A DNA stretch of 23,570 nt, taken from positions 1 through 23,570 of the IMG/VR virus record IMGVR_UViG_3300004282_000009; one strand, written 5' to 3'. A program made the position numbers and the translations under genes. The stretch comes from a virus. The notes beneath the pieces were generated by a model. That model saw only the letters and a program-made list of their open reading frames with translations. It was not told the origin of the DNA and searched no databases. Of the stretch, positions 2,588 to 13,945 are shown in pieces. Position 1 is the first letter of the stretch; each line of letters begins with the position of its first letter.

Positions 2588-3097
2588 ATGGCATCAAAGC
2601 TTGCAATCAATCGGAAGGAAGTAAGGGCAACCTATCTCGCCACGGGATCATTAACAGAAGCAGCAACCCTCCACGGCATCAAACCAGCTACCGTCAGACA
2701 ATGGGCAAAACGCTATAATTGGGAAACCAGCAGGAACGCGGAAAAGCTCGTGGAGAAGAGTATGGAGATTCAGCAGATTAAAAGAGAGAAGGGGCATCCT
2801 GACGCTGTGGCTATTTGTCACGCTGATGATGCTTTGGAAGTGTCTTTAGAGGCGAATAAAAAAGCTTTTGTGTCGTCTATGGCAGGAAGCCTGGCAAGGG
2901 CATCGCAGGAGATTGCATCTTCACCCTCAGCCCTTGAACACTCGCGCCGCATGGTTGACCTTGCTGGTGCTGCTAAGACCATTCTGGGTATCGGGGCTGA
3001 TTCAGATGCCCCTCGGCTCTCTGTCAACGTCCTCTCTCTTGATGCGTCTGCCCTGTCCATTGTTCCAGGACCGTCTAGTAACACGCTTTCTCTGTAG
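2588..3097 (+). CDS. helix-turn-helix protein, probable terminase small subunit
   Basis: 169 residues. Residues 6-45 (RKEVRATYLATGSLTEAATL, then HGIKPATVRQWAKRYNWET) form a clear helix-turn-helix, with LTEAATLHGIKPATVRQW as the helix-turn-recognition helix. The pattern ending in W-x-K-R-x-x-W is shared by many phage terminase small subunits, which recognise packaging-start DNA. The middle (about 50-130) is helical and could be the oligomerisation region; the C-terminus is a loose Ser/Pro-rich tail. No terminase large subunit lies in the window, so packaging function is inferred from the fold and the phage setting. A generic transcription regulator is the alternative. No Shine-Dalgarno is seen before the ATG. 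Confidence 0.55.
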   Translation: MASKLAINRKEVRATYLATGSLTEAATLHGIKPATVRQWAKRYNWETSRNAEKLVEKSMEIQQIKREKGHPDAVAICHADDALEVSLEANKKAFVSSMAGSLARASQEIASSPSALEHSRRMVDLAGAAKTILGIGADSDAPRLSVNVLSLDASALSIVPGPSSNTLSL

Positions 3098-3136
3098 ATC
3101 GGCCCATAAGATCAGATAACGCACAGAATAAATAGT

Positions 3137-3157
3137 TGTAACATCCCGATGTTTACA
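3137..3157. other. inverted repeat downstream of the terminase-small-like gene
   Basis: TGTAACATC (3137-3145) and GATGTTTACA (3148-3157) are near-perfect inverted arms around CC. No T-run follows, so it is more likely a protein-binding dyad or an mRNA 3' hairpin than a terminator. Confidence 0.35.
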
Positions 3158-3212
3158 GAGTAAAAAAAGACTTATTCATTTTTCTGAATGGTCATTGATG
3201 AATTTCAGATAT

Positions 3213-3241
3213 GTTAGAAGCAAATCTAACAATCCTTTTTT
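3213..3241 (+). terminator. rho-independent terminator after the terminase-small-like gene
   Basis: GTTAGA (3213-3218), loop AGCAAA, TCTAAC (3225-3230), then AATCC and seven T. The stem is perfect but AT-rich, so moderately strong. It lies 116 bases after the stop at 3097. Confidence 0.6.
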
Positions 3242-3254
3242 GGGAAAATTGACC

Positions 3255-3279
3255 TGACGGACACCACCCCTTTGACGGA
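3255..3279 (+). repeat. short direct repeat TGACGGA x2
   Basis: TGACGGA occurs at 3255-3261 and 3273-3279, 18 bases apart, in non-coding DNA after the terminase-small-like gene. Each copy follows or overlaps a TTGAC. It could be part of a promoter or a packaging-protein site; two copies are thin evidence. Confidence 0.25.
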
Positions 3280-3338
3280 AATTTTTCGGGCGACTCACCC
3301 GTAAAAGTCCCCACACAATTTTTCCTAAAAATCCCGTG

Positions 3339-3548
3339 TCACTTTTTCGAGTGCTTTGTCTTCACCCAATGAGCTTTTCCGAATATCGTCTTTCTCGCTA
3401 GTTCCTCTGGTAGTGAGAGGAGGTGGCATTTGAGGATTAGGTAGTTGTTTGGAGAGAGTAGGGATGGTAGGTTGGTTGGGTCTTCTCCGTTTGATAGGCA
3501 AGCTTTCGCTTGGGATAGGAGGAGTTTTTGGTTGGATTCGTAGTCCAT
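3339..3548 (-). CDS. possible small basic protein, unknown function
   Basis: 69 codons, reading MDYESNQKLLLSQAKACLSN onward and ending in a basic WVKTKHSKK. The predicted protein alternates polar and Leu-rich helical segments and looks protein-like (LPSLLSPNNYLILKCHLLSL). A purine-rich AAAGAAAAG lies just before the ATG and a TATAAA-like -10 about 16 bases upstream. Against it, the plus strand over the same bases also folds (CCTCT 3404-3408 with AGAGG further on; CAAGC with GCTTG around a 4-base loop near 3498-3512), so this DNA could belong to the neighbouring structured RNA. No family recognised. Confidence 0.4.
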   Translation of the reverse strand: MDYESNQKLLLSQAKACLSNGEDPTNLPSLLSPNNYLILKCHLLSLPEELARKTIFGKAHWVKTKHSKK

Positions 3549-3584
3549 CTTTTCTTTTCTTTTTATACTTTTTCTTTTCTTTTC

Positions 3585-4440
3585 AATTGCGCTTGGCTTG
3601 CGGCTGGGGCCGCGCCTCGCTTGAACGGCTTGCTCTGTGGAGCTTCGCCTACTTCAGCACCTTCGGTGGGATTCTACGAGAGAATAATTCGTTAGGAGGG
3701 CTGCTGGCGCAGGGCTTGATATTGCTTCGCAAAGAATGTGAAGTCTTGTTAAAGACGGCCCCCCAAACCCCCCAAGACGAAACTGGAGGGTTGTAGCAAG
3801 AAGCGGAGGATGGTATCCGATTCTTCGCGGGGGGTAGGTTTTGATTCCTACTCGCCGTTTGTCTCAAGCCTTCCGTGGTACGCATTCACGCTTGGCTTTC
3901 AGTTCCTTTTTGGAACGAGGAGATTATGGCATGGGGGAGAGTTAGTGTCAAGAGGGAGGGGGTTTAGGTTGTGGTCTAATCTTTGGTGGATTTGTTTAGG
4001 CTGGAGGCTAAAGATGAATAGGAAGTTTATTTGCCGACTTTATCGCAAACGATAAACTGAGCGAGTGGATGTCTATGAACGGCGACATTTCGTGGATGTT
4101 CAGTATCGTTGACATATGCCTCAAGAATTATCACTGGAGGTTATAAAGGTGGTTATTCGGGTATCTTTCAGCTTATTCCCCAAGTTGTTTAAGAAGGCGG
4201 CACTCACCGCTTTTCCCCGAATAAAAAATGGTCGTGGGAGGGTCAGGTCGCTACGAGTGTCTGGATCGTAGCCAATGGCTAACTCCACCAGATTCGTCCC
4301 TCAATGCCTCCCACGAGATAAGCGGCAACCGAGGCTCTTTGAAGAGCGTGTCAGTCACCGCATCCAGTTCGCCTAAGCTAGGCTGGAGCAGTACGGAGCC
4401 GCGCTATGCGAGACTCCGATACAAATACTAGGCATTTTTT
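3585..4440 (+). ncRNA. giant structured non-coding RNA (GOLLD/ROOL-like candidate)
   Basis: About 850 bases with no credible coding frame but dense pairing. Examples: GCGGC 3600-3604 with 3609-3613; GTCTT 3743-3747 with 3752-3756; GTAGG 3834-3838 with 3847-3851; AAGCC 3866-3870 with 3894-3898 enclosing CGTG/CACG; GTTCC 3902-3906 with 3912-3916; AGTTTAT 4024-4030 with 4052-4058 enclosing TTGC/GCAA; a 9-bp helix 4153-4161 with 4216-4224; a 10-bp helix 4232-4241 with 4307-4316 enclosing a 7-bp hairpin 4250-4256/4266-4272; GCTCT 4334-4338 with 4343-4347 inside GCGG/CCGC; GCCTA 4371-4375 with 4379-4383; CGGAG 4394-4398 with 4414-4418. It ends in six T (4435-4440). Several stems extend by G-U pairs only when read on the plus strand. 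A TATACT box at 3564-3569 could be its promoter. The 5' end is approximate. GOLLD and ROOL RNAs are of this size and occur in phages beside tRNA genes; class membership is inference. Confidence 0.6.
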
Positions 4441-4452
4441 GAAATGTGTCAA
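4425..4452 (-). promoter_or_regulatory. possible leftward promoter at the ncRNA 3' end
   Basis: On the minus strand TTGACA (4452-4447) is followed after 16 bases by TAGTAT (4430-4425). The -35 is perfect and the -10 matches four of six. If active it would make an antisense transcript across the structured RNA toward the small leftward frame at 3548. It could be a chance match. Confidence 0.3.
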
Positions 4453-4473
4453 GCATTAGTAAATTATAGTGAG

Positions 4474-4546
4474 CTACGGAGGTAGGACTCGAACCTACAA
4501 CACTCAGAGCCAAAATCTGATGATCTACCGATTGATCTACTCCGTA
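4474..4546 (-). tRNA. tRNA-Gln (anticodon UUG)
   Basis: Full cloverleaf on the minus strand: acceptor TACGGAG/CTCCGTA (7 bp), D arm GATC/GATC around AATCGGTA, anticodon stem TCAGA/TCTGA with loop TTTTGGC (anticodon TTG), a 5-base variable region, T arm GTAGG/CCTAC with loop TTCGAGT, and discriminator G. CCA is not encoded, so host CCA addition is needed. It decodes CAA, a codon used heavily in the giant virion gene of this phage. The 5' ten bases overlap the end of the FkbM methyltransferase gene. Confidence 0.97.
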
Positions 4547-5196
4547 CTGCTTTTGGGAAGACAAAGGATGTCGTATTGATTCCCTCCCTCATCTGGGAAA
4601 GGCTCAACGTCATATCCAGCATCAATGACCCATCTCAAGACATCCGCAGGGCGGCATCCTTGGCGCGACAATGCCCAAGAATTGATTTCTACCCATAGGA
4701 TGGGCATATGGCACAGAATCGTGCTTTTGGCTCCATATAGGGCTTTTAATTCGTATCCCTCCACATCTAGCTTTAGGAAGTCGAGGCGCGGAAGGTTAAG
4801 GGAGTCGAGAGTCACCACCTTGATAGACCCGCTTTCTTGGGAAAGATGAGAGGCTCCCGCATTGCTGCTTTGGTTGAATTGAATGGATTCCTCCTTGTCC
4901 CCTAGTGCAATGTTAAGAGAAATGGCATCTGGGCAGTTATGCACAAGGCATTCATGCGCTTGCGGGTTAGGTTCAATGGCAATAACCTTGCCTTCTGCTC
5001 CAACTGCCTTGAGGTATGCTGCTGTGTGGTCGCCAATAAAGGCTCCAGAATCAACAACATGATCGCCTTCATTGATATGACCAAGTATGATTGGAAGAGC
5101 ATACTGATCGTGATCCAGTCTCCCCGATTCCTCCACCCACTTCGAGATATGGGTATCACCTTCAATGACGGCAATACCAGACGGTAGGATTTTCAT
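4537..5196 (-). CDS. FkbM-family SAM-dependent methyltransferase
   Basis: 219 residues from the ATG at 5196. Motif I (VVDSGAFIGDHTAAY, residues 47-61) is the SAM-binding glycine loop. AIEPN (73-77) supplies the acidic residue for SAM ribose. LKLDVEGYELKAL (141-153) is the signature of FkbM-type (Methyltransf_21) enzymes, which O-methylate sugars or small molecules. Length is typical of the catalytic domain. Longer starts exist, up to 5274, but they would overlap the divergent glycosyltransferase gene; no clear Shine-Dalgarno marks any of them. Its stop TAG forms bases 8-10 of tRNA-Gln. Next to a glycosyltransferase, a role in glycan methylation is likely; the substrate is unknown. Confidence 0.85.
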   Translation of the reverse strand: MKILPSGIAVIEGDTHISKWVEESGRLDHDQYALPIILGHINEGDHVVDSGAFIGDHTAAYLKAVGAEGKVIAIEPNPQAHECLVHNCPDAISLNIALGDKEESIQFNQSSNAGASHLSQESGSIKVVTLDSLNLPRLDFLKLDVEGYELKALYGAKSTILCHMPILWVEINSWALSRQGCRPADVLRWVIDAGYDVEPFPDEGGNQYDILCLPKSSTE

Positions 5197-5254
5197 GACA
5201 GAAAGTTTTATGCATTTTCTTTCCATTTGGCAAGCAATATGTAAAGAAGGAGGA
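5197..5254. promoter_or_regulatory. 58-bp divergent promoter region
   Basis: Separates the leftward methyltransferase from the rightward glycosyltransferase-like gene if the preferred starts are right. AAGGAGG at 5247-5253 lies only one base before the ATG at 5255, unusually close for a Shine-Dalgarno. No convincing -35/-10 pair was found. Confidence 0.3.
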
Positions 5255-5938
5255 ATGGTTGTTGACATATTCATTCGCTCCTACAAGGAAGACTTCCCGT
5301 GGCTTGTCTATTCCTTGAGATCCATTCAGAAGTATGCGAGTGGGTTTGGGAAGGTTCATATTGCTGTTCCAGCACAGGATATTGGCGAAATGCCAAATGT
5401 GGGCGCAGCAGAGGTGCATTTAGTGCATGACTCTGGAAAAGGGTATCTTGAGCAGCAGATTACAAAGATGATGGCAGAGAAGTATTGTAATGGGAATTAT
5501 GTGCTGCACATGGATAGCGACTGCCTTTTTACAAAGCCAGTATTACCAGATGACTTCTTCATTGACGGGAAGCCAATTATGCTACGCGAGAATGGCGTAG
5601 AATCGCCCTGGAATGACATTAGCGCAGTCTCGCTAGGGTGGAGGGATGAATATGAGTATATGAGGCGTTTGCCGATTATCTATCCGAGGTGGATCTATCG
5701 GGAGTTTCGAGGATGGCTGCATAACTATCACGGGATGCCTGTTGATCAGTGGGTGATGAGGCAACCAGATAATAAGTTTAGCGAGTTTAATACGATGGGG
5801 CAATGGGCGCATAAGTTCTATCCAGAGGAGTTTCATTGGGCGCATCCATGTGAAATTCAGCCAGTTGCACGACAATTCTGGTCATGGGGAGGAATCACAC
5901 CAGAGGTGCAGGTGGAAATTAACACTATTCTCGCATGA
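5255..5938 (+). CDS. glycosyltransferase-like protein (GT-A type, DUF6492-like)
   Basis: 227 residues. The N-terminal strand VDIFIRSYKEDFPWLVYSLR (3-22), then VHIAVPAQD, and the metal/sugar-nucleotide motif HMDSDCLF (85-92, DSD at 87-89) make a GT-A-type nucleotide-sugar transferase fold. The later Trp/Tyr-rich part would form the acceptor site. I recall this arrangement from DUF6492 glycosyltransferases; the name is from memory. The frame is open 30 codons further up, but homologous-looking sequence begins at this Met and AAGGAGG lies immediately before it. The stop overlaps the next gene (ATGA). With the FkbM gene it suggests modification of a phage or host glycan. Confidence 0.75.
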   Translation: MVVDIFIRSYKEDFPWLVYSLRSIQKYASGFGKVHIAVPAQDIGEMPNVGAAEVHLVHDSGKGYLEQQITKMMAEKYCNGNYVLHMDSDCLFTKPVLPDDFFIDGKPIMLRENGVESPWNDISAVSLGWRDEYEYMRRLPIIYPRWIYREFRGWLHNYHGMPVDQWVMRQPDNKFSEFNTMGQWAHKFYPEEFHWAHPCEIQPVARQFWSWGGITPEVQVEINTILA

Positions 5939-9049: not shown

Positions 9050-12000
9050 ATGCCATTCAATCAAGACGCTTTAGATCAAGCAAGAAGCCAAGGGTATTCC
9101 GATGAAGAGATATTCTCGCACCTTGCAAGTAGCGACAAACGATTTAGCGTTGCAAAACAGCAAGGGTACTCCTTGGATGAAATTGCCACGCAATTAACCA
9201 AAGGAGGTGAAACAAATGAACAAGTCCAAAATCAGCCACAAGCCGACCAAAATCGCAATGCGGAACGAGAGCCTTTACAAGAAGACCAGCTGCAAGCAGC
9301 AGATGTCGGGCAGCGTAATGAGCAAGGATTGCTGCCACAAGACCAAGGCCAGCGTCGAGGGAATGACCAAGCCGATCTAACAGGAGGTGAGTCAATTGAA
9401 GGACAAACGCAAGATGCCCAAGGAGGAATCCAAGGGGCGCAAGAAAGGCAAGGCGTACCAAGCCAAGTCCCTACGGGGAACCAAGCGGAAATAGCACAAG
9501 CGGTTAAGATGGAGCAAGGCGTTCAACCCGCCGCTCCTGCAAAGCAGCAAGTTGGTGGATTGGCGGCATTTGGAAGGGGTATCACTCAATCTCTCGCCGC
9601 AACCAATGAACTTCTTGCTGATGCAGTCGGATTGTTCCCATATTTAGAGGATAAGGCAGCTAGGGCATTCGGGATTGACAGCAATCTCTACAACCGATGG
9701 AAAGATGCGGTTCATTCAACTGGACTAGGAAAGCCAGGTGTTGAGGCTGCTGCAATCAAGCCTACAGAAGAACTGACAACTGCTGGTCAAATTACCCAAC
9801 CAATCGGAACTATGGTTGGCGATTTGGCGTTTATTCTTGGAACTGGTGCTATGGGAGAGTCCGCTGCTGGATCAAAGATGATCGCCCAAGCGGAGCCTAC
9901 AATCATTCAAGCCGTTAAGGATTCACTTCCCCAAATTCAGCGTGGATTGCAAGCCATGTCAGTTCCAGCGGCAAAGTCTGGAGTTGATGCCATTCAGCGT
10001 TCTGCTGATAAGGGAGATGACACAATCACCCAAATGGCAAAGGGCATGGCAAGCGCAATTGCTACAGACGTAATTGGAGCAATGCCTCTTGCTGCACAAA
10101 GCAAATTGACAAACCCCGTGTTGCGATTCTTGGAGCAAGGAGCTTATGGGTTTTTGACATCTATTCCTGCAACTGAATTCCAGAAGCAAGTTGAGTCATG
10201 GTCTGAAGGAAAGCCTTATGTTCCTAGTGAATTTAAGGATATGGTTATTCAAGCAATTCCAATGGGATTGATGAGTGGCGTTTTTGGAATTGCCCATGCC
10301 CCTCAGAACGTAAAGATCAAGAGGGAGATTGAAGAAGCTGGACTTCCTCAAACCGCTGAAGTGGTTTCTGAAACAATGGCAGAAGAGCCAGTTGCGGCGG
10401 AAGCATCCAATGAACCTCCCGCTGAGATTCCAGCCGAACCACTAACTGAAATTCCCGCTGAAGCACAACCAACCAAACCAAGTGAAACAGAAATCCCAGA
10501 AACAAGTCGCGTATCTCCTGTCGAAAGTGTCGCCCCTTTCGCAGAAGCAGCAGTCAAAGCTGAAGAAGGAGTTGCACCAAGGCAAGGTGAAGGTGAAAAA
10601 GAAGTAGCCGCTCCCGAAGGAGCCAGGGTCGCCGCTGCTGCCTATCTCGCTCCCGATGGAAAAACCTACGAAGGAGCGTCACATCTCGAAGCAATGGAGA
10701 ATGCCAAGAAAGCAGGAGCCATTACGCAAGCTGAAATTGACGCAAAGCAGACGGCAGAATCACGCAATACCGAGGAGTTCGGCTATGTCGTAACGCAGCC
10801 AGACGGAACTCGCGTTACCACAAACCGTGAGGCTGCTGGAAAAATAGCAAAGGCATCTGGTCAAGCTCTCAAGGAAGAGTTTGATTTTGGCGACAAGATG
10901 CACAGCAATGAGACGAAGCTAGATGATTTCCCGCAAGCTGGAGAGGTGAAGGAGCCTACATTCATGGAGCGAGCGGAATCATGGGCAGACCAAACGCTTG
11001 CTGATTTCGTCAAGCAATCTAGAAAGGCTGGAATCACACCAGGATTTGAAGGCCCGAATGCAGCTGAAGTAATTGCAGCAGCAGCCGTTAAAGGCGCAGC
11101 TATCATTGCCCGTGGTGCTAGGGAGTTTGGCGCATGGTCAAAAGAGATGGTTGCGCGATACGGCAACGCTATTGAGCCATACCTTTCCGACATCTGGGAG
11201 AAATCCAAGGCATATGCTGCTGGTGGCGAGAAGGCTATGGAGGATGTGCTTCCGTATCTCAAGGAAGGCAAAGGCCCGACCGTGATGCGAGGAATGTCAG
11301 AGCGCATTGCAGAACAGGCTCCTGAGTCGCTGCGTTATCAGATTGAGGCAGATGAGCTTGTCGGAAGGAAGAAAGTTTCCTTTATTGAGGCCAATGAGTT
11401 TGTCTCATCTCTCAAGGATGATGATGTTCTTGCTGAATACGAGCGCATCAAGTCCATGCCAAAGAGCGAGAGCCAAGGAGCCTACAAGGTTGCTCTTGGA
11501 CGAAGGGCAAGCGAGATCCTTCAAGAGCGTGGAGATGACGCTGCCTCTGGTCGCATCATCAACGAGATTTCAGAGGAAGGATCGTATGCTGGCGTTGTCT
11601 TGTCTGCTATCGGAAACTTCTTTGCAACTACTCCTAAAGGATTCCTAAACGATGTTATTTCCGCTGCTGAGAAGAAAGGTGTTAAACTCAGCGAGAAAGC
11701 CAAGCAAAAGACATCTGATCTTTATGGGTCTTATCTTGAGGCAAAGAAGAATCTTGAGCTTGCTACTGAAACGATGCTGAACATTGGCAGCGAAGAGGAG
11801 TTTAAGCAGGAATTGAAGATGCTGAAGTTCTGGGGGGATAAGGCACTTGATGCTCAAACTGCTGTTCAGAAATATGTTGGAGGATTGATGCCAAAGGATG
11901 TTCGCACGGAGATGTATCCCGCGCTGCAAAAGCTTGGGCTTATATCCACAAGATCGTCTGTTATCAACTATGAGCAAAACATCATTAAGGCACTTACAAT

Positions 12001-13945
12001 TGATATTCCAGCAAATTTAATTAGCTCTGGAGGTGATATGCTCAAGGCAATGGTTTTGGGAAGAGAAAGAACATTTGTATATGGCCCACAAGAGGCTGCT
12101 ATTCTAATTTCTACTATTGCAAAACACACGCCAGAAATGGCAGTAAATATCATTAAAGCAATCGCAGGAAAAGACTTGCGCATCTCTAACCCTGCTAACT
12201 CATTGGAAGTCAAGGCAGCATTTGATCCAAAGGCGGCAATAAAAAGGCTTAGAAATAACCCAGAGGATCTTGAATATGACTATTCAGTAAAGGAAAAGGT
12301 TAAAGATTTCGTGGAAGCTACTTATGGAAGAGTGGCAAATGTCATGGCAGGTTTCCTAATTGCCACAGACAGGCCGACTCGCGTTGGAGCCGAGAGGGCA
12401 GCGGCTTCCAGCATAGCCAGAAACCTTGGACTAAAAGGTTTGGAATACAAAAAGTTCCTTGAGGCTCCAGAGAAGGCTATTGAGTTTTTTGTTAGAAGGA
12501 CAGAAAAAGATCCAGCAGTAAGGGCTGAGAAAATTGCTGAATATAAGAAGCGATTGAATGACATGACGGCTGAAGCATTGATGGAGCAGGAGGGTAAAGC
12601 ATTTAAGGCATTAACAAAATTCACAAAGCTTATTGACGATTTATTTGCAACAGAAGGAGGAAAGGGTGCATTCACATCGGTTCCACCTTGGATCTCGACA
12701 ATATTTAATAATGTTGTTTTCCCGTTTGTTAGATATTCTGCCAACTTTGCAGCCTCAGTTTTCAAGCTTGCTCGACCAGAAGTTGCTGCGATTTCATTTG
12801 TGTCTAATGTTTTGCAGAAAAAAACCTATGCTGCGACAAGGGATTTTGGACTTCTTGGAGTTTCAATAACAACAGGCGTTATCGGATATTATTTATATAA
12901 AAACGGCATTATTAATGCTAGTTATAAACCGCAATCCAAAGAGCAGGATATTGGTCAAGAAACTGGAGATACTGGTGGAATGATTAACTTTTCTGCTATG
13001 TATCGTCACTTTAATGGCCAGGATTCCACATGGAGGAATGATGACAATATCCAAAAGCTCACTTCTCTTGGACTTGTTGGGGTAATGATGAACGCTCAAG
13101 CAGACGTTCAAAAAATCATGGATGACGCAAGAATCCAAGATCAGAATGCAAATGTTGCGTGGGCTAGGTTTGTTACTATCCCGAAGGTTATGCAGCTTGC
13201 ATTGAATGCATCAACAATGAAAGGGGTTTCCGATTTTCTTTCCGCTGTTTCAAAGGATCAATTGGATGGATGGTACAAATCTGTGTTTAAGACACTTGTG
13301 GCAGTTCCAGCACCAATGACTCTTGATCAAATATCAAGGGCAACTAGAAAATATACAATTGATGTTGATGGTGAAAATGTTCCATCAACTCTTTACAACA
13401 TTATAAATGCAAGATTTGGTTATGATGAATATCTTCCAAATAAATATGGAGTTTGGGGAGAGCCAATTCCGCAAACTCCAAAAGGAGAAAATCCATTCGT
13501 CTATAATCTTATCAATCCGTTCAACAGCAGGACATTAAACTACAAGCCAGCAACCGAACAGATGATGCTTCTTTACAAGCAAACGCTTGACAAGGAAGTT
13601 CTTCCATCCAAGCAAGACAATCAGATTACAGTTGGTCGCAGCACATACAAACTTGATACTGCGTCGAAACAACGAGTGCAGCAACTTGTTGGACAAGAGA
13701 GGCTAAAGCTTATCAACAACCTTATTGATGGAAAATACTTTGAGGGAGAATACGGGCAAGAAGTTCCTTGGGTGATGCTTACAGAAGAGAGCAAATTGAG
13801 AAAATGGAAGCGTAGTCTTGATTTGGGAAATGAGCGCGGGAAGAAAGCTTTCGTCAATGAGCGTGAAGCTAAAGGAATTGCGATTGGCAAGAAGATGTTG
13901 ACCACTCCAGAGAGAATAGAGAATATCAAAGCTCTGCAAAAATAA
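9050..13945 (+). CDS. giant internal virion / DNA-ejection-type protein
   Basis: 1631 residues, the largest gene here. Residues 5-50 are two copies of a short helical repeat (ARSQGYSDEEIFSHL and AKQQGYSLDEIATQL). Residues about 52-160 are a Gln/Gly/Asp-rich disordered region and about 440-530 a Glu/Pro/Ala-rich one. The C-terminal third is hydrophobic: FPFVRYSANFAASVFKLARP (about 1223-1242) recalls the P-F-x-R-x-x-x-N element of large polyvalent/ejection proteins, and FGLLGVSITTGVIGYYLY (about 1265-1282) is a likely membrane segment. Such giant proteins sit in podovirus cores and form a conduit through the cell envelope. I see no lysozyme, RNA polymerase or protease motif. A tape-measure protein is a less likely reading because no tail-tube or sheath gene is nearby. 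Confidence 0.7.
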   Translation: MPFNQDALDQARSQGYSDEEIFSHLASSDKRFSVAKQQGYSLDEIATQLTKGGETNEQVQNQPQADQNRNAEREPLQEDQLQAADVGQRNEQGLLPQDQGQRRGNDQADLTGGESIEGQTQDAQGGIQGAQERQGVPSQVPTGNQAEIAQAVKMEQGVQPAAPAKQQVGGLAAFGRGITQSLAATNELLADAVGLFPYLEDKAARAFGIDSNLYNRWKDAVHSTGLGKPGVEAAAIKPTEELTTAGQITQPIGTMVGDLAFILGTGAMGESAAGSKMIAQAEPTIIQAVKDSLPQIQRGLQAMSVPAAKSGVDAIQRSADKGDDTITQMAKGMASAIATDVIGAMPLAAQSKLTNPVLRFLEQGAYGFLTSIPATEFQKQVESWSEGKPYVPSEFKDMVIQAIPMGLMSGVFGIAHAPQNVKIKREIEEAGLPQTAEVVSETMAEEPVAAEASNEPPAEIPAEPLTEIPAEAQPTKPSETEIPETSRVSPVESVAPFAEAAVKAEEGVAPRQGEGEKEVAAPEGARVAAAAYLAPDGKTYEGASHLEAMENAKKAGAITQAEIDAKQTAESRNTEEFGYVVTQPDGTRVTTNREAAGKIAKASGQALKEEFDFGDKMHSNETKLDDFPQAGEVKEPTFMERAESWADQTLADFVKQSRKAGITPGFEGPNAAEVIAAAAVKGAAIIARGAREFGAWSKEMVARYGNAIEPYLSDIWEKSKAYAAGGEKAMEDVLPYLKEGKGPTVMRGMSERIAEQAPESLRYQIEADELVGRKKVSFIEANEFVSSLKDDDVLAEYERIKSMPKSESQGAYKVALGRRASEILQERGDDAASGRIINEISEEGSYAGVVLSAIGNFFATTPKGFLNDVISAAEKKGVKLSEKAKQKTSDLYGSYLEAKKNLELATETMLNIGSEEEFKQELKMLKFWGDKALDAQTAVQKYVGGLMPKDVRTEMYPALQKLGLISTRSSVINYEQNIIKALTIDIPANLISSGGDMLKAMVLGRERTFVYGPQEAAILISTIAKHTPEMAVNIIKAIAGKDLRISNPANSLEVKAAFDPKAAIKRLRNNPEDLEYDYSVKEKVKDFVEATYGRVANVMAGFLIATDRPTRVGAERAAASSIARNLGLKGLEYKKFLEAPEKAIEFFVRRTEKDPAVRAEKIAEYKKRLNDMTAEALMEQEGKAFKALTKFTKLIDDLFATEGGKGAFTSVPPWISTIFNNVVFPFVRYSANFAASVFKLARPEVAAISFVSNVLQKKTYAATRDFGLLGVSITTGVIGYYLYKNGIINASYKPQSKEQDIGQETGDTGGMINFSAMYRHFNGQDSTWRNDDNIQKLTSLGLVGVMMNAQADVQKIMDDARIQDQNANVAWARFVTIPKVMQLALNASTMKGVSDFLSAVSKDQLDGWYKSVFKTLVAVPAPMTLDQISRATRKYTIDVDGENVPSTLYNIINARFGYDEYLPNKYGVWGEPIPQTPKGENPFVYNLINPFNSRTLNYKPATEQMMLLYKQTLDKEVLPSKQDNQITVGRSTYKLDTASKQRVQQLVGQERLKLINNLIDGKYFEGEYGQEVPWVMLTEESKLRKWKRSLDLGNERGKKAFVNEREAKGIAIGKKMLTTPERIENIKALQK

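Follow-up and report, generated by a model that had tools for sequence, protein, structure and literature searches.

The window, by which we mean the whole stretch of DNA analysed here, is an IMG/VR record of 23,570 bases that represents a phage fragment. Its genes include one for a small terminase-like protein, 2588-3097(+), and one for an FkbM methyltransferase, 4537-5274(-), and the interval of interest, 3585-4440, is situated between the small terminase-like gene and the tRNA-Gln/FkbM genes. The features recognised in and next to this interval are the following.

4473-4546, minus strand: tRNA-Gln(TTG) gene, on the same strand as the RNA and directly upstream of its promoter
4425-4452, minus strand: sigma70-like promoter TTGACA-N16-TAGTAT, then TTGTATCG, with 10 of 12 consensus matches
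4223-4418, minus strand: the RNA as predicted from fold z and from homologous transcription units in other phages, ~196 nt
4394-4418, minus strand: 5' hairpin D1 (CGGAGUCUC...GGCUCCG), an interchangeable 5' module
4363-4387, minus strand: hairpin D2 (UCCAG CCUAGCUUAGG CGAA CUGGA), counterpart of a widespread NNNN-GGAUCUUCGGUGAA-NNNN hairpin
4322-4361, minus strand: hairpin D3 (GCGGUGACUGA...UCGGUUGCCGC), interchangeable, with 18 sequence types among 52 distinct members
4232-4316, minus strand: conserved core domain, with a covariance model match of 82.6 bits and covariation
4307-4316 with 4232-4241, minus strand: P1 of the core, 10 bp
4298-4306 (CAUUGAGGG) and 4242-4252 (AGCGACCUGAC), minus strand: near-invariant internal-loop strands of the core
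within 4232-4316, minus strand: P4, the variable tip hairpin of the core
4223-4231, minus strand: 3' tail CCAUUUUUU after P1, a terminator-like U-run
3585-4222, no strand given: rest of the interval, lineage-specific sequence outside the RNA

The gap that adjoins this interval is otherwise non-coding in appearance and holds a 69-aa ORF, at 3339-3548(-), that is conserved at the protein level in many relatives (best tblastn E 3e-10), has no Pfam match and has a 79-aa counterpart in the close relative L124. Directly after the stop codon of the small terminase gene, ~70 bases (3104-3175) form a short conserved non-coding stretch with 82-83% identity to L124 and L125, a conservation that exceeds that of the adjoining genes. 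A 1631-aa protein encoded elsewhere in the window, at 9050-13945(+), has no PHROG or Pfam match.

Relatives were fetched through the proteins of the window and by an exact 14-mer scan, and were compared by blastn. The 14-mer scan yielded mostly noise, yet revealed the motif, and the blastn comparison revealed a shared element around 4225-4316. Members were collected by three pattern scans of the viral collection, filtered on P1, and the core domain recurs in 83 viral loci, 52 of them distinct. The sole family found with Rfam 15, both at the gathering threshold in the window and at E<=10 in 3000-4700, is tRNA. The region itself had no blastn match among GenBank phages and plasmids, and a search with the RNAs of three relatives against GenBank phages returned, among the matches listed, just the Gln/Asn tRNAs of one relative; a literature search found no described RNA that matches. 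By these searches, the RNA family is previously uncatalogued and its matches come from uncultured phage contigs alone. The exact core pattern has six matches in 84,980 bacterial and archaeal genomes, which we reject as chance because the other half of the motif is missing; the match in an isolate record, L216, is likewise attributed to chance.

Within the core, P1 (10 bp) is followed by 5' CA, AU pairs, a G.G mismatch and AGG-CCU, a 3' AGCGA bulge and the variable P4. Both strands of the asymmetric, purine-rich/AGCGA internal loop (GCANUGAGGG…AGCGACCUGAYC) are near-invariant, whereas the flanking helices vary. Covariation was assessed over 20 pairs in 33 diverse members, by five measures and against 500 shuffles. 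In this set, 93.3% of the cells pair, both sides change in 12 of the 20 pairs, the cells with changes on both sides number 78 (20.8 in shuffles), the covariation score is 0.369 (0.135 in shuffles), and not one of the 500 shuffles comes up to the real value on any of the five. When the partners are shifted by 1-3 columns, pairing falls from 93% to 38-58%, and RNAalifold, unaided, recovers the identical structure. P1 itself is rewritten yet remains complementary, as in UCCUAGGAGG/CCUCCUAGGA of L217 and L219 and GUUGGGGG/CCCCUAAC of L206. The search patterns demanded most of the loop letters, so that part of the loop conservation stems from how the members were selected; the covariation of P1 and P4 does not, because neither was constrained in the last two scans. 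The check proposed by the first-pass annotation of this DNA, a search for covariation in the homologous intergenic regions of other phages, thus succeeds, with covariation beyond that of shuffles.

The strand follows from the G-U pairs. Among 30 aligned distinct members, the minus-strand reading contains 45 G-U cells as against a single A-C cell (the equivalent of G-U on the plus strand), and in a wider set, changes on one side of a pair yield 50 G-U cells when read on the minus strand versus 5 on the plus strand; the RNA strand is therefore the minus strand. The minus-strand covariance model scores 67-95 bits on its own strand and does not exceed 21 bits on the other. Covariation combined with this asymmetry identifies an RNA, and we regard the presence of a structured minus-strand RNA element at this locus as practically certain. 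The GACCUGAYC strand, which is base-paired in the structure, may be complementary to the conserved loop of bacterial SRP RNA. Two other candidates were discarded. A small ORF from a conserved NUG through the core has no conserved reading frame: N is A, G or U across members, and in frames read by hand a stop falls inside the tip or at its end in L131 and L133, and the tip is read through in L132 and L086. An integron attC-like site is a misfit in polarity, and the G-U pattern requires RNA.

The first-pass annotation had proposed a giant GOLLD/ROOL-like RNA on the plus strand, some 850 bases long and extending over 3585-4440. The size of the intergenic gap, the tRNA neighbour, the phage origin and several perfect stems are all in line with such an RNA. 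The interval as a whole is more stable than shuffles on both strands (fold z -3.67 on the plus and -4.02 on the minus strand). The two long perfect stems on which that reading drew, of 9 bp (4153-4161/4216-4224) and 10 bp (4232-4241/4307-4316), are present, with evolutionary support limited to the 10-bp helix. The dozen stems do not clearly exceed chance, with 7 perfect stems of at least 7 bp compared to 3.65 in dinucleotide shuffles (P 0.06); in 3585-4222, there are 5 compared to 2.5 (P 0.12), and none of at least 8 bp. The fold energy of 3585-4222 is ordinary (z -1.73/-1.85 for the two strands, where background 150-nt windows have a mean of -0.55 and sd of 1.49), and this part has no homologue among the compared loci except for a weak ~40-nt match at 3962-4000. 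Unlike 3585-4222, the segment 4223-4416 folds exceptionally on the minus strand, and for 4223-4418(-) the fold z is -4.72, with 0 of 200 shuffles as stable. The predicted RNA is thus the ~196 nt at 4223-4418, the remainder being neither conserved nor unusually folded, and the plus-strand U-run in which the proposed RNA was to end, 4434-4439, falls inside the spacer of the minus-strand promoter. With Rfam 15, neither GOLLD nor ROOL is matched, be it in 3000-4700 up to E 10 or in the relatives, and part of the adjoining gap is the conserved small ORF at 3339-3548(-). With the G-U evidence across homologues favouring the opposite strand, a giant plus-strand RNA is almost certainly not what this interval encodes. 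What survives from that annotation is a structured non-coding RNA that lies beside a tRNA gene in a phage and matches no known family; its strand, size, extent and kind are revised.

The promoter of the window was identified as a match to the consensus, with TTGACA-N16-TAGTAT ending at 4425. Near-identical blocks (TTGACA-N16-TAGAGT or TAGGAT, then TTGTA(A/T)CG) precede the RNA in L160, L164, L168 and L219, and TTGCCA-N17-GATAAC is a promoter-like site in other members. In L206, L207 and the L132 group, a promoter-like site immediately abuts P1, which implies that a core of ~70-95 nt can exist alone. A run of at least four U follows P1 in 39 of the 52 distinct members and is absent in the other 13. 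Judging from promoter and U-run, the transcript of the window would extend from about 4418 to about 4223.

The 16 types of P4 tip and the 18 types of D3, the stretch directly preceding P1, occur in 38 combinations among the 52 distinct members; the RNA is therefore a mosaic. The P4 type of the window is shared with L186 alone, and D1-like hairpins similar to that of the window are found in L167 and L201, other D1 modules including a tRNA-Trp called by ARAGORN, a tRNA-Met and unrelated elements. For the tRNA-Trp module of L137 and L138, Rfam gives a weak tRNA-Sec match, below threshold. The D2 motif GGYGAAC is present in 46 of 63 loci, and its closing stem varies compensatorily (GGGG/CCCC, GCGG/CCGC, CCGG/CCGG, GUGG/CCAC).

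Several additional elements accompany the RNA. In L131, L130, L137 and others, the RNA promoter and the core are separated by a divergent tRNA-Trp (CCA), which scores too low for the Rfam tRNA threshold and weakly matches tRNA-Sec. The 5' modules AAAGGUUCCAUCUGAUUGAC... and GGAAUCAUUGCUGGUUGCAUUGG... recur in L125, L135, L140, L126, L129, L144 and L161; each is conserved across phages, and they are, perhaps, independent RNA families. Some 6-76 nt past the core, L172, L136 and L158 carry a tRNA-like element (tRNA-??? with a two-base anticodon according to ARAGORN), with similar sequence in L202, L209, L214 and L215; in L137, the Rfam tRNA model has a 27.1-bit match just behind the core. This post-core element is possibly another RNA module.

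The RNA is mostly a single-copy element: once weak opposite-strand matches are set aside, one copy is found in 28 of 30 matching records and in 15 of 16 further records. The exceptions are G031, with a weak extra match, and G034, with a second, tandem copy (cores at 10715-10809 and 11009-11087, ~300 bp apart). A same-strand tRNA is located within 700 nt upstream in 27 of the 52 distinct members and an opposite-strand tRNA in none, so this is a non-coding phage RNA close to tRNA genes. The protein-coding neighbourhood differs among phages: the RNA lies beside the small terminase gene in the window, L008 and L015, directly behind the large terminase gene in L144 and L145, between a protease/scaffold-like gene and the major head protein gene in L138 and L155, and outside the packaging/head block in L143. 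At least three different types of large terminase accompany the core. Among the 19 RNA-bearing genomes sampled, no protein family occurs throughout, the most frequent one being present in 11, and co-occurrence reveals no universal protein partner in this sample. The record of L124 contains no RNA match; at the position of the RNA of the window (7741-8223 in L124), an ORF of 160 aa that includes an HNH-like motif is present instead, and the RNA site looks like an insertion hot spot.

Two classes of phage RNA invite comparison. GOLLD, a phage RNA with an unknown function that occurs near tRNA islands, has a conserved 3' part and a less conserved 5' part, and its transcript sometimes contains tRNAs; many GOLLD RNAs are longer than 800 nt, and GOLLD forms a 14-mer cage (PMC12286853). 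ROOL, found in phages and prophages, often near tRNA islands and also of unknown function, is exemplified by env-120, with 659 nt and multiple pseudoknots (PMC12286853). The RNA described here resembles both in its phage habitat, the tRNA island and the conserved 3' part combined with a less conserved 5' part. In contrast to GOLLD, its conserved unit measures ~196 nt in the window and consists of one core hairpin plus modules; compared to ROOL, it is much smaller and a linear row of hairpins; and it matches neither in Rfam. We set it apart from GOLLD and ROOL because it differs from them in sequence and size.

The strongest rival to an autonomous RNA is a specialised, possibly regulated intrinsic terminator or a 3' end-protection element of tRNA-island transcripts, in which P1 and the U-run would stop transcription and the loop would be read by a termination-control factor or by processing enzymes. 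Like an intrinsic terminator, the core, in the window as in the 39 members, is a GC-rich helix followed by a U-run, so its conservation could serve termination; tRNAs upstream are always on the same strand; and in L132 and L086 the core is close behind an ORF. Members directly behind an ORF or a tRNA array could be 3' UTR elements. However, the arm of ~85 nt is not called in a standard terminator scan (which covers loops of 3-8 only), the U-run is missing in a quarter of the distinct members (13 of 52), and there is usually one copy per genome rather than one at each of many operon ends. Furthermore, an intrinsic terminator needs no near-invariant loop sequence, and where a promoter-like site abuts the core there is nothing else to terminate. 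Altogether, we consider this reading quite possible, if short of probable.

The location in the head or packaging block in many lineages (such as those cited above, including the window) and the small size suggest a packaging or head-assembly RNA analogous to the pRNA of the phi29 family. Such a function is improbable, given that the same core occurs with several types of terminase and with tRNA arrays, that some members, such as L143, lie elsewhere, and that orientation relative to the genes varies; the sequence is not known to resemble phi29 pRNA. Finally, the imperfect palindrome with its variable tip and the clear exchange of cassettes between phages could reflect an element acting at the DNA level, namely, a recombination, packaging or origin hairpin whose invariant strands would be protein sites for cassette swapping. 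The G-U bias towards one strand (45 to 1 and 50 to 5) is not expected under selection on a DNA hairpin or duplex, and neither the upstream promoter and downstream U-run nor the constant strand of the tRNAs fits this scenario, which we regard as highly unlikely.

The reading that we prefer, with about an even chance of being correct, is that of an autonomous small structured phage RNA that acts in trans and has a conserved loop binding a partner. Under this scenario, a sigma70-type promoter of its own, situated just behind the tRNA, would drive transcription of the RNA from the minus strand, and the transcript would end at the U-run behind the last hairpin. Exchangeable hairpins would stand in front of the conserved core hairpin, and in many relatives a tRNA takes the place of one of them. 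That the loop strands are near-invariant within a freely drifting helix points to a bound partner, whose putative binding site is most likely this invariant internal loop. The occurrence of the RNA in phages that differ in their packaging machinery points to either a host-derived partner or a self-sufficient RNA; a host protein or RNP component is the probable partner, as no phage protein co-occurs throughout, and we infer that the RNA would act in trans during infection. In most members, the core hairpin probably also ends the transcript, with P1 doubling as the terminator, and the swapped tips and 5' modules would tune or diversify the RNA. More tentatively, and with some doubt on our part, the family could be a new, cassette-type class of phage regulatory RNA, in which an invariant core that binds a ligand or protein is retained by phages from several unrelated terminase lineages and the tips, preceding hairpins and 5' modules, whole tRNAs included, are exchanged among phages in rapid re-assortment, perhaps to counter recognition of the RNA by a host factor or defence.

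In summary, comparative evidence strongly supports a structured RNA family that has no match in Rfam 15 and no detected occurrence among GenBank phages. Its core is conserved nearly letter for letter across different packaging machines amid shuffled surroundings, so that what binds a single short internal loop becomes a directly testable question. The family is a small, tractable addition to the poorly understood RNAs of phage tRNA islands, such as GOLLD and ROOL.
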